Source: Ignavibacteriales bacterium (GTDB taxonomy: Bacteria > Bacteroidota > Ignavibacteria > Ignavibacteriales > Melioribacteraceae). From it: 64,000 nucleotides of DNA. The stretch lies in contig JAPLFG010000004.1 in NCBI GenBank assembly GCA_026390795.1, forward strand, positions 186,001 to 250,000, written 5' to 3'. Every line of letters begins with the position of its first letter. The first letter of the stretch is position 1. Below are positions 32,742-40,543 of this stretch, piece by piece. The position numbers were made by a program, and so were the translations under genes. The notes beneath the pieces are model-generated. The model saw nothing but the letters and a program-made list of their open reading frames with translations, did not search any database and was not told the DNA's origin.

Positions 32742-34718
32742 TTACTTAGCCAATGCCTGGATAATATCATTAGTGTTTTTAGACTCTATGTATCTAGACC
32801 ATTGTATATCAAATTCCTCTAATATTTTTTTTCTATAATCCTGAGTATGGAGTTTAATTACATGTTCGGATAATATTACGTTGCCGTCGCCAGAACTATT
32901 GATAAATTTTTGATACCATTTACGGTACATTTTGTTTAATGCCCAATTAAATAGCGAATTTATTCTATACAATGAGGAACTTTGAATATGTGAACTTTCC
33001 GGAATCTTATAATTTGGATAGAAATTTGTTACCCAATTATTCTTACTAATAAAAAAGTTAAGGTATTCATCATTTTTAAATGGTTTCAGACTCATGATTT
33101 GATGAGCTACATATAAATCATTAGGGGTATTTATCACTATTTCCTTTTCATCAATCAAATAATTAACACACACTATATTTCTTGATTTGAAGAGAAGCGA
33201 TATAGCATGGATCAACAGATAAACAATATAAACCGAATAAGGCTTTGTAATTATAAAGAGATCAATATCATCATGATTGTTGATACCATAATTGGCGGTT
33301 CCTCCGCTAAAAGCAATCAGAGTTATAAACGGAATTTTATTTAGCACTTTTAATAATCTTTTTACCAACCGCGGATCGATCGATTTATTTTTTTTAGTAT
33401 AGAACGAATCAATTTCCGTATTAAGAATCATTTTGTTGTTATTGATTGTTATCGCGTTCTTCATAAGTAATGATTCGGTTGCGTCATCTATTTGCTCTCT
33501 TGTTACTTTTATATCATGCAGAAAAGGATGCAAACTTTCAAATTCCAATCCGCTGTTAAAAAGTTTATAATAAAGAAGAGTTTTTTCAATTGCATTTTCA
33601 ACTTCATCGTGGTGCGCTCGATTCAAGTAGAATATTATATTTTCTTTTTGGATTACGGTTGATAATATTGAATTTAACTGGTCAGCCATCTGTTCCGGCG
33701 AATATTCAATCTTATATTTTTGTTTTTCCGATTGAGCGGCAATATATAAACGGTCAAATCCCATTAACATCTCATTACACATGGAAGGATGGAAAGTAAA
33801 AGAATGTGGTTGCGAAATTTCTTCTGTACTCGTGCCTGAACTGCAAAGAACGGGCAATCCGTAATGCATCGCTTCCAACACCGGAAATCCAAAACCTTCT
33901 ACAAAACTTGAATGTACAAATCCCGCAGCGTTTTGGTAAAGTTGGTGAAGTTCAAGCTCTTCAACATACCCGGTAAATTCAACATCGGGATGATGAGAAT
34001 AGCGTTTCATCATGTTTTGAATTTCTTCCGAATTTTGCCAGATCTCACCGGCAATTTTCAATTTCATTTTGACACTGTTTTTCGATTTCCAGCTAACAAA
34101 ATTTTCAATCATGAATAATAAATTTTTCCGTGGTTCAATATGCCCGACATATAAAAAATATGGGCTTTCAGCATTGATATGATTCGTCAAATGATTTTTT
34201 GAGAAAATACTTGCGTCAACATACGGCTGCAGCAGATGAATTTTATTTTTATCTACTCCAAGATATTTATTAATCATTTCCTTTGAGTGCTCACTTATAG
34301 TGACAATCAACGGATTCTTTTTCATAATCTTTGTCAACTGGTTTTTGTAATAGAAGACAAATGCTTTTGAATAGAAATCTGGATGAGAATAAAAAGAAAG
34401 ATCATGAATGATTATTAAAGATGGTTTATTGAAATTGAGAGGCATTAAATAATTCGGGAAAATTCCGAAATCCACTTTGGCATTATACATATCCGAGGAG
34501 AGCAAAAATGTTCTGTAAAGATGGCGGTTAATCCCGCCTCTTTTTATGAATGGAATTGAATTTAGAATGTTACTTTTTGGTAATCGATCGATTGATTGTA
34601 TTGGAAATGTTTTTATCTCATGTTCAGTTTTATTTAATTGAGATAGCAGACATTGTATATATCTTGAAGTGCCGGTGTTTTTTCCGCCCATCGCGGAAAT
34701 GTCCAAACCGATAATCAT
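32742..34718 (-). CDS. GT4 glycosyltransferase fused to a winged-helix/nucleotidyltransferase-like domain
   Basis: 658 residues from ATG 34716-34718 (GGATGG about 7 bases upstream; an ATG at 34730 has no ribosome site). The N-terminal part is a complete GT4 glycosyltransferase (about 1-340), with GKNTGTSRYI near the donor loop and the EGFGFPVLEAMHYGLPV motif (E-x7-E) near 280. After a helical linker comes a second region (about 370-650). It has a winged-helix-like piece and then FSGGTANYGINNHDDIDLF near 475-493, matching the GG ... D-x-D pattern of nucleotidyltransferase fold proteins. This pairing is unusual for GT4 enzymes. The second domain may bind or transfer a nucleotide, or may only regulate. 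It is first in the minus-strand cluster. Confidence 0.75.
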   Translation of the reverse strand: MIIGLDISAMGGKNTGTSRYIQCLLSQLNKTEHEIKTFPIQSIDRLPKSNILNSIPFIKRGGINRHLYRTFLLSSDMYNAKVDFGIFPNYLMPLNFNKPSLIIIHDLSFYSHPDFYSKAFVFYYKNQLTKIMKKNPLIVTISEHSKEMINKYLGVDKNKIHLLQPYVDASIFSKNHLTNHINAESPYFLYVGHIEPRKNLLFMIENFVSWKSKNSVKMKLKIAGEIWQNSEEIQNMMKRYSHHPDVEFTGYVEELELHQLYQNAAGFVHSSFVEGFGFPVLEAMHYGLPVLCSSGTSTEEISQPHSFTFHPSMCNEMLMGFDRLYIAAQSEKQKYKIEYSPEQMADQLNSILSTVIQKENIIFYLNRAHHDEVENAIEKTLLYYKLFNSGLEFESLHPFLHDIKVTREQIDDATESLLMKNAITINNNKMILNTEIDSFYTKKNKSIDPRLVKRLLKVLNKIPFITLIAFSGGTANYGINNHDDIDLFIITKPYSVYIVYLLIHAISLLFKSRNIVCVNYLIDEKEIVINTPNDLYVAHQIMSLKPFKNDEYLNFFISKNNWVTNFYPNYKIPESSHIQSSSLYRINSLFNWALNKMYRKWYQKFINSSGDGNVILSEHVIKLHTQDYRKKILEEFDIQWSRYIESKNTNDIIQALAK

Positions 34719-34730
34719 GGTACCATCCAA

Positions 34731-35059: not shown

Positions 35060-36730
35060 TTAATGGAGTGAGATATTATAGATCGGGATGCTGATATCCC
35101 CTGTATTATTTTTAGAAGCCGAAATTTTATTCAATTCATTCATGGTAAGTTTTAGCACACCGAGAGAACGCTGGCTTAACAGATCAATTTTAATCAAACC
35201 AAGTTCTTCCGTGGAATACATATCCGGCTGTGTGATCACTAGACCGAGCCCTTTGTTCTTGGCGTATTCCATTGCAACGTAATTTGTAATTTTTTCTTTT
35301 GTAATAATTATTCCGCTCGGGTGAATGCTTAAGTGACGCGGGAATCCGGCAAGTCTGGATGCAAGGTTTACAATTGTTTTCCAAGGTTCATTTTTAAAAT
35401 CTAAAGAACGTGTCTCCGGAAATTTCTCGGCAATATTCGGAAGATTGTGTGCCGAAGTCCACGGAATAAATTTACTGTACTTGGAAATTTCGGAATCGGG
35501 GATACCGAATGCTTTGGCAACTTCTCTGAAAGCAGAACGCGCGCGGAAAGTAACTGTTGTGGAGATCATTCCGACCCGATCATAACCATACTTTTCAAAA
35601 ACATATTTTATAATTGAGTCTCTCTCCTTCCATGAAAAATCCAGATCAACATCCGGCGGAGAAAGGCGGCCGCGGTTAAGAAATCTTTCGAAGTAAAGAT
35701 TATGTTTTACCGGATCAACTTCCGTAAAACCAAGACAGTAAGAGACAAGACTATTTGCTGCCGAGCCGCGACCGATATGAATTATTCCGCGGCTCTTTGC
35801 TTCACGTATAATATCCCAAACAATTAAAAAATAATCGCTGAAACCAAGTTCTTCAATTACTTCTAACTCATAATTGAGCCGTTTAATTGCCTGCTCTGTA
35901 ATTTTATCGTACCGCCTTGTAAGACCTTCAAAAGAGATTTTCCAGAGAGATGAGAAAGCGCTGTCGTTCAGCTGTACTGAAAATGTTGGGAATTTATATT
36001 CGCCTATTTTAAGATCAACATTACATTCTTGCGCAATCTTATCGGCATTCCAGAGAGCTTCGGGAAGTCCTTTCCAAGTAAGTGAAAGCTCTGCCGGAGA
36101 TTTAAGATAGAATTCCTCGTCAATAATATCTGCGCTCTCCAAATTGGCAAGAGTGGAATTACTTCTAACTGCAGAAACAACTTTGTGAAGAAGAAAATCT
36201 TCGGGCGAAAGAAAATATGCCGGATGAGTAGCGACAATTTTAAGATGATTCGCTTTTGCAAAATCATAAAGCACACGAGTATTATTTTTTTGTTTCTCCG
36301 TCACAATAAGTTCTACAAATAAATTTTGCCTGAGCGACAGATCAATCTGCATCTGTTTCAATAAACTGATAGAGGAAGTAAGAATGAAAAGATCGTTTAA
36401 AGGTTCTTTGAAAAGATTAGGCAAGGAAAAATCGTCTTTTAATTTACGGGTTGTAATAATTCTGCATAGATGGGAATAACCGTCATTATTCCTGGCAATA
36501 AAAACCGCGGATAAATCTTTCTCTTTGGGATCGTCAATAAGAGCGCCGAGAATAGGTTTGATATTATTTTCTTTAGCGGTTTTGAGAAACTGGATTAAAC
36601 CGTACATGGCATTTGTATCTGTAAGCGCTACGTAAGTACTGTTCGATTTTTTTGCGAAGCCGACGAGTTCATCAATCTTAATTGTTGATTGAAGCAAAGA
36701 ATAATTGGAATGTGCGTGAAGAGTAAACAT
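35060..36730 (-). CDS. DNA polymerase III alpha (DnaE-type), N-terminal half
   Basis: 556 residues, starting MFTLHAHSNYSLL. The PHP domain covers about 1-230 and the polymerase palm about 260-530. The catalytic aspartates of the palm appear in PPDVDLDFSW near 340-350, and the third probably in LGLIKIDLLSQ near 510. The protein ends abruptly after MNELNKISASKNN and a short tail (YNISLH), just where an ordinary DnaE would continue into the fingers. No intein sequence is at the end. The remaining half is encoded on the other strand at 37956-39650. The gene starts one base after the dinB stop, with a ribosome site inside dinB (GGAAGGGAAGG), so the dinB-dnaE pairing is intact. Confidence 0.85.
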   Translation of the reverse strand: MFTLHAHSNYSLLQSTIKIDELVGFAKKSNSTYVALTDTNAMYGLIQFLKTAKENNIKPILGALIDDPKEKDLSAVFIARNNDGYSHLCRIITTRKLKDDFSLPNLFKEPLNDLFILTSSISLLKQMQIDLSLRQNLFVELIVTEKQKNNTRVLYDFAKANHLKIVATHPAYFLSPEDFLLHKVVSAVRSNSTLANLESADIIDEEFYLKSPAELSLTWKGLPEALWNADKIAQECNVDLKIGEYKFPTFSVQLNDSAFSSLWKISFEGLTRRYDKITEQAIKRLNYELEVIEELGFSDYFLIVWDIIREAKSRGIIHIGRGSAANSLVSYCLGFTEVDPVKHNLYFERFLNRGRLSPPDVDLDFSWKERDSIIKYVFEKYGYDRVGMISTTVTFRARSAFREVAKAFGIPDSEISKYSKFIPWTSAHNLPNIAEKFPETRSLDFKNEPWKTIVNLASRLAGFPRHLSIHPSGIIITKEKITNYVAMEYAKNKGLGLVITQPDMYSTEELGLIKIDLLSQRSLGVLKLTMNELNKISASKNNTGDISIPIYNISLH

Positions 36731-36731
36731 C

Positions 36732-37886
36732 TTAATCCTTCCCTTCCGCGCCGATATGAATTGACTTAGAGCCGAACTTGTCTCTGATTTTAGTTACGGC
36801 ATTGAGCATCCGTTTGCGGATGATGTCTTCATCTTCAAATAAAACTCCCTGTTCGGAAGAATGATCGAGATTGCTAAGGTGAACACCGATCAAGCGGACG
36901 CCGACTCTCCGCGAATAAGCGTTGCGGAAAAGTTTAGAAGCGGTTTCAAATATAATTTTATCATCATCGGTTGGTTCGTGCAGAGTTTTTGCACGCGTAA
37001 TTGTTGAAAAATCCGAATAACGGAGTTTTATAGAAACAGTTGCAGCATGAAAATTTTCATTCCGGAGAAGCTGGGCAACTTTTGCAATTAGTTCGAAGAG
37101 ATGATTTTCAATTTCTGTTTTGCCGACTATATCCTGGTTAAAAGTTGTTTCTTTCGAGATGCTTTTTCTATCATGTTCAGCATAAAGAATATCGTTGCCA
37201 AAACCGTTAGCACGGTTCCAGAGATCCGTGCCGAACTTTCCGAGAACAGTTGCAAGATAATCCGGCGAAGCATTGGCAATATCTCCGATTGTTTTAAATC
37301 CGCGCGCCCGTAAAATTGGGAAAGTTTTTTTGCCAACACCGGGAATTCTTTCAATTGCAAGAGGCGCAAGAAACTCTTTTTCCTTTCCGTGAGGAACAAA
37401 AGTAATTCCGCACGGTTTCTTAAAGTCGGTAGCAATTTTACTTACGCCTTTATTCGAGCTGATCCCCATAGAACAAGGGAGAGAAAATTTATGCTGGATT
37501 TCATCCTGCAATTCCTTGGCAAACTTTTCCGGCTTGCCGTAAATTTTTTCGCATCCGGTAAAATCAAAATAAAATTCATCAACAGAAGCCTGCTGCACGA
37601 GCGGAAATTTTTCTTCTAAGAGTAATTTCACCGCGTTTGAGTAGCGCACATATTCTTTGTAATGACCGTGAAGAAAGAGAGCTGTTGGGCATAAGCGGTA
37701 AGCGTTTCGAATCGGCATTGCCGAATGAATGCCGTATTTCCTGGCTTCATATGAACAAGCGGCAACAACTCCGCGCCCATGCGGATCTCCGCCAACAATT
37801 ACCGGTTTACCTTCGAGCGAAGGATCTAAAATCCTTTCGACCGAGACAAAAAAAGCATCCATATCTAAGTGGAAGATGGTTTTCAT
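36732..37886 (-). CDS. dinB: DNA polymerase IV (Y-family, DinB/ImuB-like)
   Basis: 384 residues. Y-family palm motifs are present: HLDMDAFFVSVE at 6-17 with the first catalytic Asp pair, and ASVDEFYFDFTGCEK near 100-114 with Asp-Glu. The fingers motif YEARKYGIHSAMP is near 48, the HhH region RIPGVGKKTFP near 185, and the little-finger domain fills the C-terminus. All catalytic residues are visible, so this is an active translesion polymerase and not a catalytically dead ImuB. It is translationally coupled to the DnaE N-half, as in the dinB-dnaE mutagenesis cassettes of Bacteroidota relatives. Induction by damage is likely but no LexA box was identified. Confidence 0.93.
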   Translation of the reverse strand: MKTIFHLDMDAFFVSVERILDPSLEGKPVIVGGDPHGRGVVAACSYEARKYGIHSAMPIRNAYRLCPTALFLHGHYKEYVRYSNAVKLLLEEKFPLVQQASVDEFYFDFTGCEKIYGKPEKFAKELQDEIQHKFSLPCSMGISSNKGVSKIATDFKKPCGITFVPHGKEKEFLAPLAIERIPGVGKKTFPILRARGFKTIGDIANASPDYLATVLGKFGTDLWNRANGFGNDILYAEHDRKSISKETTFNQDIVGKTEIENHLFELIAKVAQLLRNENFHAATVSIKLRYSDFSTITRAKTLHEPTDDDKIIFETASKLFRNAYSRRVGVRLIGVHLSNLDHSSEQGVLFEDEDIIRKRMLNAVTKIRDKFGSKSIHIGAEGKD

Positions 37887-37955
37887 AGAAAAATGTTGTT
37901 TTTAGTCAATTTTGCCCTTGAAATAGTCGATAATAAATTATAATATAGTGCACAA

Positions 37956-39650
37956 ATGTTCACCATTAATATGATAAAAGAAGAGAATATAAACAAGTCA
38001 GAAGTGCTGGATCTGGCAAAATATAAATTGCCGGAAGCCAGAAAACTGAATAAAATTTTTGACGCCGTCCCAAGAATTATTAACGAGACCGGCTTCGATA
38101 TATTCAATTATGAAAATGTATTTGCCGATTTTGCGACTCAAGAATTAATCCGCACCGGAAATACTATCGGCTGCTTTTATATTGAAAGTCCCGGCATGCG
38201 TTCACTGCTTAAGCGCACCGACTGCCGCACATTTGAAATGCTTACGGCCGTATCATCAATCATCCGTCCGGGTGTTGCCGAAAGCGGAATGATGAAAGAA
38301 TTTATTGAGCGGCATAAAGATCCTAAGAGAAGAAAATATTTAGTCCCAGAGATGGAAAAATATCTTGGTGAAACATACGGCGTTATGATTTATCAGGAAG
38401 ATGTAATAAAAGTCGCTCATCATATTGTCGGATTGACTTTGGAAGAAGCCGATTTGCTCAGAAGAGCGATGAGCGGAAAGATGCGTTCTCATAAAGCAAT
38501 GCAGATGGTAATGGATAAATTTTTTATCTGCTGCAAAGAAAAAGGATATTCCGATAAAACAGCCGGCGAATTATGGAAACAGATAGAAAGTTTTGCCGGA
38601 TACGCATTTTGTAAAGCGCATAGCGCTTCGTTTGCATTACTCTCCTTTCAAGTAGCGTATCTCAAAACGCATTATCCCGCGCAGTTCATGGCATCGGTGT
38701 TAACAAATCAAGGCGGTTATTATTCTGCCGCTGTTTATGTCTCTGAAGCAAAGAGACTTGGAATAAAAATTTTACTTCCGTGCGTTAACAACAGTTATTA
38801 TGAATACAGCGCAGCCGTTAAAGAAATAAGAATCGGTTTAATGGCAATAAAGAATCTTGAATCTTCCGAAGCCGATTTGATAATCAAAGAGCGCGAAGCC
38901 AACGGCAGATATGTTTCTCTTGCCGATTTATTAGTAAGAACAAAACTCGGCTATGAACGCTGCGAATCTCTGATCAAGTGCGGAGCGATGGATTGCTTTA
39001 ATCAAACAAGACCGACACTTTTAAGATTGCTCGATGTCTATTTCAACAGCAGAAAATTGCTTGACGAAAGTTCAAACGATTTGTTTGTGAATGAATCGAT
39101 CAAATTGGAAAAAGAAGTTGTAACTGGAATCGATTTCAGCATGGAAGAAAAATGTCTTTGCGAGTTTGATACTTTCGGCTATATGGTTTCCCAGCATCCG
39201 CTTGAATTTTTTGAAGAGATAAAAGCTGAAGAGATCGTTCCGTCTGCCGGCATGCTGAAGTATAACGGCAAAAAGATAAAGATGATCGGTTGGTATATGG
39301 CATCGAAGAGAATTAAAACAAGCAAGGGCGAAATAATGAAATTTCTTTCCCTCGAAGATCTGAGCGGAACATTTGAAGCGGTGATCTTTCCGCAAGCGTA
39401 CGCAAAGTTTGCTGAGCTCACTCTTTCCATGGGACCGTTTGTAATTGAAGGCAAAGTTGATGCGGAGAGCGGCAATAATATAATAGTCGATAAACTCAGC
39501 GTTCTAACCGAAGCGACGGCGAAATCGATCACGCAAAAAGACCGGAATGCTGCCGACTTCTTCGGCGATGCGGAAAAGCCGGCAAGTTATGAAGAGATAA
39601 TGCTGGTTGATTCTCTCGGTAAAGAGAAATTAATGCATGCTTACTTGTAG
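37956..39650 (+). CDS. DNA polymerase III alpha (DnaE-type), C-terminal half
   Basis: 564 residues. From about residue 60 it reads as the rest of a DnaE protein: QELIRTGNTIGCFYIESPGM (fingers start), then YGVMIYQEDVIKVAHH and AMSGKMRSHKAM. Next come FAGYAFCKAHSASFALLSFQ, helix-hairpin-helix and beta-binding parts, and an OB-fold near 430-500 (KTSKGEIMKFLSLEDLSG). PHP domain and catalytic aspartates are absent; they lie in the N-half at 35060-36730 on the opposite strand. The first 40-50 residues do not look like DnaE. No good ribosome site precedes the ATG, and a promoter between it and divergent dinB is uncertain. It may need the N-half to act, or may be a silent remnant, though the frame is open to the end. 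Confidence 0.85.
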   Translation: MFTINMIKEENINKSEVLDLAKYKLPEARKLNKIFDAVPRIINETGFDIFNYENVFADFATQELIRTGNTIGCFYIESPGMRSLLKRTDCRTFEMLTAVSSIIRPGVAESGMMKEFIERHKDPKRRKYLVPEMEKYLGETYGVMIYQEDVIKVAHHIVGLTLEEADLLRRAMSGKMRSHKAMQMVMDKFFICCKEKGYSDKTAGELWKQIESFAGYAFCKAHSASFALLSFQVAYLKTHYPAQFMASVLTNQGGYYSAAVYVSEAKRLGIKILLPCVNNSYYEYSAAVKEIRIGLMAIKNLESSEADLIIKEREANGRYVSLADLLVRTKLGYERCESLIKCGAMDCFNQTRPTLLRLLDVYFNSRKLLDESSNDLFVNESIKLEKEVVTGIDFSMEEKCLCEFDTFGYMVSQHPLEFFEEIKAEEIVPSAGMLKYNGKKIKMIGWYMASKRIKTSKGEIMKFLSLEDLSGTFEAVIFPQAYAKFAELTLSMGPFVIEGKVDAESGNNIIVDKLSVLTEATAKSITQKDRNAADFFGDAEKPASYEEIMLVDSLGKEKLMHAYL

Positions 39651-39652
39651 AA

Positions 39653-40543
39653 TTAATTGAGAGAAATTTTTCCTAATCTTGGATACGCTTTCAATGTAGC
39701 CGGTGGAACCGGGATTTTAATTCTTTCATTTAACAAGTGAATCAGTTCCAAAGCATTTGCAACGGCATTGCCGTGCGGATGATTGTTAAGAATCAGATAA
39801 ACTTTCTTTACGGTATCAAGAACTTCTTTGATTGCTCTTTCAAACTCCAGCAATTCTCCGGGTGAATAAAGATAATCGTAACGCTCGCTTTGCTGCTCGT
39901 AAGTCTGATCTTTCTCGAAATTATTTAATGATTGCTTCCATGCTTTTTCATTCCGCCCGTGCAGTCTTATATAAAGATTCTCCCCCGCTTTAACTGTTTT
40001 GAACTCAACTGCCTCGCCGATATTCGGCTGATCAATTGTGCAGAGCGAACTTTTATTTTTTGCCGCAAAGTTATAGAAGCGTTCAATCAACCATGATTTA
40101 TGCCGGACTTCGATAAACTTTTCATATTCGGAAAAGATATCAACCAGATCTTTTACATAATTGGCATTTTCCTTTGTTAATGTGAATGAGTAAGGAAACT
40201 GAATGAGCAAACCCCCGAGCCGCTCGGCATTTTTCAGCTGGTTTAGATTTGATTTTATGGCTTCAATTTGAGCGTTCTTAAAATTGTGTTTATGTGTAAA
40301 GTCTTGATGAAGTTTTATTGTGAAGAGAAAATCATTTTTGTCTTCTACTTTATTTATCCATCCCTCAACGGTTTTTGGAGAGATATAAGTATAATAACTT
40401 GCGTTTACTTCAACAGTATTGAAATATTGCGAATAGAATTCGAGCCAGTCGAAAGATTTACTTTGTGATTTGGTATAAAAACTATCGATCCAATCCTTAT
40501 AAGACCAACCGGCTGTACCGATGTAAATTTTTGTTTTAGACAT
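39653..40543 (-). CDS. DUF72 (YecE-like) TIM-barrel protein
   Basis: 296 residues. The family start IYIGTAGWSYKDWIDSFY (4-21) and the conserved blocks FNTVEVNASYYTY near 41, FLFTIKLHQDFTHK near 70, FIEVRHKSW near 142 and YIRLHGRNEKAW near 193 are present. DUF72 proteins are TIM-barrel-like, sometimes linked to nucleic-acid repair; their reaction is not established. It converges on the DnaE C-half, with stops two bases apart. No partner gene. Confidence 0.88.
   Translation of the reverse strand: MSKTKIYIGTAGWSYKDWIDSFYTKSQSKSFDWLEFYSQYFNTVEVNASYYTYISPKTVEGWINKVEDKNDFLFTIKLHQDFTHKHNFKNAQIEAIKSNLNQLKNAERLGGLLIQFPYSFTLTKENANYVKDLVDIFSEYEKFIEVRHKSWLIERFYNFAAKNKSSLCTIDQPNIGEAVEFKTVKAGENLYIRLHGRNEKAWKQSLNNFEKDQTYEQQSERYDYLYSPGELLEFERAIKEVLDTVKKVYLILNNHPHGNAVANALELIHLLNERIKIPVPPATLKAYPRLGKISLN

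Follow-up and report, generated by a model that had tools for sequence, protein, structure and literature searches.

A predicted two-polypeptide accessory DnaE-type DNA polymerase of Ignavibacteria with a LexA-type operator at its C-terminal half

The DNA analysed here (the window, 64,000 nucleotides of an Ignavibacteriales contig) carries at positions 35060–39650 the two halves of a DnaE-type DNA polymerase III alpha subunit as separate genes, dnaE-N and dnaE-C, with dinB located between them; the claims of an initial annotation of this region were re-examined. The two genes are likely to encode a naturally split, intein-free accessory polymerase of the C family (DnaE2-like), which consists of two polypeptides and would become complete once repression of the C half by LexA is lifted. 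In the proposed course of events, a fused gene, often situated beside dinB, would have been cut at the linker between the palm and the fingers, most simply once, after which the two resulting genes would have moved freely.

The dnaE-N gene (35060–36730, minus strand) codes for a protein of 556 amino acids comprising the PHP domain and the palm with three catalytic aspartates (PHP and DNA_pol3_alpha in the domain scan; Pfam PF02811 and PF07733). The dnaE-C gene (37956–39650, plus strand; 564 amino acids from the ATG at 37956) encodes the fingers, HhH and OB half (DNA_pol3_finger and HHH_6; PF17657 and PF14579), with an OB match under the Pfam cut-off (19.9 vs 27 bits). Its true start is probably the ATG at 37971, because a palindrome at 37946–37965 overlaps the ATG at 37956, and sits about 22–37 bp before the start in many relatives. 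One base upstream of dnaE-N, the dinB gene (36732–37886, minus strand; 384 amino acids) codes for a complete Y-family DNA polymerase IV (Pfam IMS and IMS_C, and a match to NCBIfam PRK02406 that passes its cut-off), which would be the likely partner of the split polymerase. The DinB tail and the RecA-NT motif are alike by eye, but their pairwise score is not significant, 251 of 1000 shuffles scoring as high. The initial annotation placed all three genes correctly; its view of the halves as complementary, intact frames of one DnaE-type polymerase also held, as did the absence of an intein, since no intein family appears in the Pfam results and the ends at the split are very short.

The source genome (4.08 Mb, 5 contigs, stated completeness 100) was searched for another full-length dnaE, as the initial annotation had advised, and one was found on another contig as an open frame of 1152 amino acids. 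It is 32% identical to the N half and 29% to the C half over their main pieces, and the split pair is therefore a second DnaE.

Four aspartates of dnaE-N (Asp 360, 362, 364 and 516), which we take to be catalytic, are invariant in all 37 aligned N halves (alignment A2, with two of 39 rows excluded). Residues R169, R170, K175, K220, H222 and S223 of dnaE-C, presumably serving the function of the fingers, do not vary among the 32 C halves aligned, and neither do L376 and F377 in a clamp-motif-like stretch (alignment A1, with seven of 39 rows excluded as cut or of unsure start). The catalytic aspartates and the fingers residues are conserved on separate chains, and the DnaE domain set (PHP, palm, fingers, HhH and catalytic Asp) is complete but spread over two proteins instead of one polypeptide. 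DnaE-N would contribute PHP and the catalytic palm, and DnaE-C the fingers, HhH, OB and an LF resembling a clamp motif. Because a complete polymerase site is present on neither chain, the chains should pair to work, and they are predicted to form one active enzyme.

The mean predicted local distance difference test (pLDDT) scores of the AlphaFold models were 83.1 (N) and 79.8 (C), with the C leader mostly below 50, and the top PDB matches of both were Pol III alpha: 2hpi for N (template modelling score 0.81 by query) and 7pu7 for C (0.66). As in DnaE2 and DnaE2B, there is no C-terminal tau-binding domain, the C half terminating about 50 residues past the OB match. The PHP domain resembles that of DnaE2 in its disrupted metal site: positions that we take to be metal ligands differ from the Taq alignment, for example position 39, which is T in 29 of 37 rows, and position 63, which lacks E. 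In the trees described below, the split polymerase is orthologous to the dinB-linked DnaE of the phylum. In many dnaE-C proteins a weak motif, D-x3-Y-x-L-P, lies in the disordered leader; it is lacking in the fused orthologues and might dock the N half.

The halves are often encoded by unlinked genes, apparently under different control, as would be expected if the two proteins acted separately in different roles, or if DnaE-C regulated or assisted another polymerase, e.g. the full-length DnaE. This explanation is unlikely, since each chain retains as invariant the active-site residues missing from the other part, and the halves are present together and lost together.

The joint occurrence of the halves was assessed by a survey of 57 genomes (the source genome and 56 relatives), which was tallied by hand with full-length dnaE hits excluded. 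Both halves occur in 39 genomes and neither in 15, while one genome has only C and two have only N (Fisher p = 9e-11); N pieces on two contigs (G017 and G021), a partial N (G031) and a C with an internal gap (G035) were counted as present. Among 11 genus-mates, eight lack both halves (G002, G004, G005 and G007–G011), three of these eight being less than 90% complete. These losses, together with the gap in the C half of G035, could indicate that the halves are non-working remains of a decaying dnaE2. However, the frames are long and intact, the catalytic residues are invariant across families and omega is low (the ratio of nonsynonymous to synonymous substitution rates, dN/dS, was computable for five of nine gene pairs, with N or C values of 0.144, 0.057 and 0.114 and synonymous sites close to saturation), which makes decay very improbable.

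A scan of named genomes, in which the best 80 of 283 relatives of C were analysed (the named loci), yielded 81 C frames, the longest of at most 628 amino acids, and the record names of these loci range over Melioribacter, Ignavibacteria, Bacteroidetes and Chlorobi. In wider samples, comprising 119 genomes from the class and 148 from the phylum, fused orthologues with frames of about 980–1110 amino acids, unless cut by contig ends, were found in the class families coded f4, f12 and f23 and in further classes belonging to the same phylum, and at several loci of the phylum they adjoin dinB. Standalone halves are also present in f13, another family of the class, where unrelated genes intervene between them in G106 and G097. 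One otherwise fused orthologue (L223 in G134, family f22) has a sole in-frame stop exactly at the palm-fingers linker, which may result from mutation or from an error in sequencing, or may mark a second split of young age. A viral origin of the pair was considered and rejected: of three relatives on viral contigs, the two with listed frames, L290 and L292, are fused (1017 and 979 amino acids at the match).

The end of N and the start of C fall in the same linker of 19 aligned fused orthologues, so that the halves tile at the boundary of palm and fingers in the alignment that the initial annotation had proposed as a check. It had also raised the possibility of a wide overlap between them; an overlap of about 30 residues against the NCBIfam models is only apparent, being caused by the variable dnaE-C leader, and vanishes against the fused orthologues. 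In the f13 genome G106 few residues were added at the split, N stopping a few residues past a conserved helix. Trees of N and C were built from 64 rows each (64 of the 68 rows having both parts) and a joint tree from 63 rows, with DnaE1 as the only outgroup. All 41 split rows form one clade, supported in the Shimodaira–Hasegawa-like approximate likelihood ratio test (SH-aLRT) by values of 99 (N), 96 (C) and 99 (joint), while the 19 fused rows stand beside it (98, 81 and 96, respectively) and DnaE1 lies outside. The trees were quick ones made without bootstrap; flags were raised for long DnaE1 branches, and several fused rows deviate in letter composition. In both the N and C trees, four rows from f2 and f3 (G041, G046, G055 and G056) are placed among f1 rows near that of the window, suggesting joint movement of the two genes. 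The distances in the N and C trees are correlated with r = 0.58 (maximum 0.37 in 2000 permutations), a value that still includes the shared species history. By its spread and its place in the trees the split is old, a single fission of a fused gene being the simplest explanation.

The arrangement of the two genes varies. Of 19 genomes in which N and C are close, tallied by hand, ten have them divergent around dinB and one divergent without dinB, three have N followed by C, two C followed by N, and three have them convergent. At 31 of the 80 named loci N is present in the available flank (16 divergent, ten C-then-N, two N-then-C and three convergent), contig ends concealing some N neighbours. 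Distances of hundreds of kilobases separate the halves in G034, G045, G047 and G048, each of which is a single-contig genome. Most of the records are metagenome assemblies by title, which might raise the suspicion of an assembly or annotation artefact, but the split recurs in many assemblies, including these four single-contig genomes with distant halves, so that an artefact can be discounted almost entirely.

The initial annotation attributed the split to a possibly recent inversion around dinB in one strain, or to a segment that still flips, and drew attention to a 12-mer, TGAATAAAATTT, present in inverted orientation at 35122–35133 (minus strand) in the variable tail of dnaE-N and at 38047–38058 (plus strand) in the variable leader of dnaE-C. 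Both copies are there, with no third in the window, and the chance of an inverted match of at least 12 bases between two such 200-bp segments is small (P ~0.006–0.008); the divergent arrangement in the window likewise fits an inversion. However, among 60 fetched loci of relatives (L064–L123) two carry a single copy of the 12-mer and none carries the pair, so the conserved inverted repeats expected of an invertible segment are missing; the match is judged to be a coincidence and not a site of recombination or micro-homology. Furthermore, the same linker is split throughout the order and in a further family, the split genes form one clade in all three trees, and the halves are found in several orders and up to hundreds of kilobases apart, so that a recent event is contradicted and, gene order being variable, a recent flip is unnecessary. 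The breakage of a single dnaE by inversion is therefore highly improbable, and among the alternatives of the initial annotation the two-chain polymerase is the best supported.

The regions around the start of dnaE-C share a 20-bp palindrome, TAGTGNNCANNTGNNCACTA, which was recognised at 36 of 38 genes by the criterion of at most three mismatches at 14 fixed positions (mean 0.22, maximum 2 in 200 shuffles); its distance from the start is atypical in G049 and G006, for which the choice of start may be responsible. In a search of five genomes with one mismatch allowed it was found at one to three places in each, all of them at dnaE-C except for those immediately upstream of lexA in three genomes, while the reversed pattern was found at none in the same genomes. 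The lexA gene in question encodes a canonical LexA (TIGR00498 above cut-off). A scoring matrix trained on the dnaE-C sites was applied to the main LexA genes (20 genomes searched, 18 with a hit) and found a site at 15 of 15 main LexA loci; no site was found at 12 other LexA-like loci, including the best hits of G151, G106 and G068, and the reversed control gave four hits in 2.53 Mb. The palindrome of the window, TAGTGCACAAATGTTCACCA (37946–37965), lies between the divergent dinB-dnaE-N unit and dnaE-C, scores 25.4 and is the sole window site scoring 10 or more. An operator shared with lexA assigns dnaE-C to a LexA (SOS) regulon at the level of sequence, and binding of LexA to the palindrome is predicted. 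As a further candidate target, recA was rejected, the best score in the recA locus of the source genome being only -0.1.

Where the halves are apart, a site is present upstream of dnaE-C at 23 of 24 loci vs none of 24 for dnaE-N (hand tally; Fisher p = 1.6e-12), a weak site at L120 being far to the downstream side of N. Nine of these 24 dnaE-N genes, all at f3 loci, are situated directly behind purD (TIGR00877; distance 1–89 bp), and at three f2 loci dnaE-N follows a DUF72-dinB pair. A LexA-type operator would thus precede nearly every dnaE-C, while dnaE-N lies behind purD or dinB with no site of its own, unless a divergent promoter region is shared with dnaE-C, as in the window. On this model, the polymerase would be completed after DNA damage, when its C half is supplied. 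In a more specific form, put forward tentatively and with slightly more doubt than belief, the polymerase would be armed by SOS: the catalytic half would be made steadily, e.g. from a purD operon, LexA would gate the fingers half only, and damage would enable error-prone synthesis through completion of the enzyme. With two mismatches allowed, zero to three sites per genome were found away from lexA and dnaE-C in four genomes vs 3–12 for the reversed pattern; with the prominent sites in these genomes located at lexA and dnaE-C, the half-enzyme would be a main output of LexA. In G030, G050 and G106, dnaE-N or dinB has a second LexA-like gene no more than about 10 kb away; its product is 38% identical to that of the first, and it may control dinB-dnaE-N.

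Several observations weigh against a two-chain polymerase completed through LexA. The N half occurs without C in G053 and G054, a C fragment at a contig edge without N in G001, and C with no split N found in G157, for all of which draft assemblies may be responsible; the gap within C of G035 belongs here as well. No palindrome was found at dnaE-C of G043 and G050, where N precedes C, and G044 has only a weak one, nor was it found at the f13 or fused loci scanned. Finally, where the cassette is divergent, as it is in the window, both units may be served by a single palindrome, and control of one half only is therefore not universal.

If the proposed reading is true, a C-family polymerase divided between palm and fingers and kept across an order can act as a heterodimer, and mutagenic synthesis needs both a standing half and an induced half. 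The damage operator at one half would provide a direct test of whether gene fission yields a regulatory switch. A natural two-piece polymerase would be useful for structural work, and a LexA operator would be available for Ignavibacteria, none having been found in the portions of the literature searched.

The cassette in the window is followed by a DUF72 gene (39653–40543, minus strand; Pfam PF01904), convergent to dnaE-C. Its relatives were detected by blastp at 16 of the 60 fetched N/C loci, among them the relative upstream of dinB-N at three f2 loci, and no function is assigned to DUF72. On the other side, the product of a group 1 glycosyltransferase gene (32742–34730) has about 350 C-terminal residues with no Pfam match.

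Natural division of a cellular DNA polymerase between two polypeptides is reportedly known from Methanobacterium thermoautotrophicum (a study cited in PMC3984812), whose split polymerase is of the B type and archaeal, unlike the one described here. In cyanobacteria, the pieces of dnaE may lie apart in the genome and are spliced into one protein. The likeness consists in a dnaE of two pieces that can be unlinked; however, the cyanobacterial halves are joined by protein splicing, whereas the present ones lack an intein domain, and their ends at the split are very short. The intein-split dnaE of cyanobacteria is named in the available text of PMC3919608. For jumbo phages of group 2.2, the accessible part of PMC7824862 predicts a minimal Pol III alpha in split form; compared by description only, it belongs to phages and lacks other Pol III domains, whereas the present polymerase is cellular and includes PHP, HhH and OB. 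An older survey (among PMC3919608, PMC6511836 and PMC12926913) rebuilt or removed fragmented sequences, as far as its available text describes, and this handling may have hidden split DnaE. In the literature searched, which lay outside subscription papers and preprints and was available in part, no description of a split DnaE in Ignavibacteria was found.

The accessible part of PMC8565304 deals with Bacteroidetes LexA proteins that are non-canonical and have other motifs. They share with the system predicted here the SOS control of error-prone polymerase genes, but here a canonical LexA (TIGR00498) is associated with TAGTGNNCANNTGNNCACTA. The portions available of PMC12926913 and PMC6511836 report a Bacteroidetes DnaE2 that accompanies an active Y-family polymerase, DnaE2B-PolY-RecA. 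As in that system, an accessory DnaE adjoins an active-looking DinB in the window; however, the DnaE2B described there is one polypeptide, whereas the polymerase of the window is divided between two genes, of which that for the C half has a LexA-type operator.

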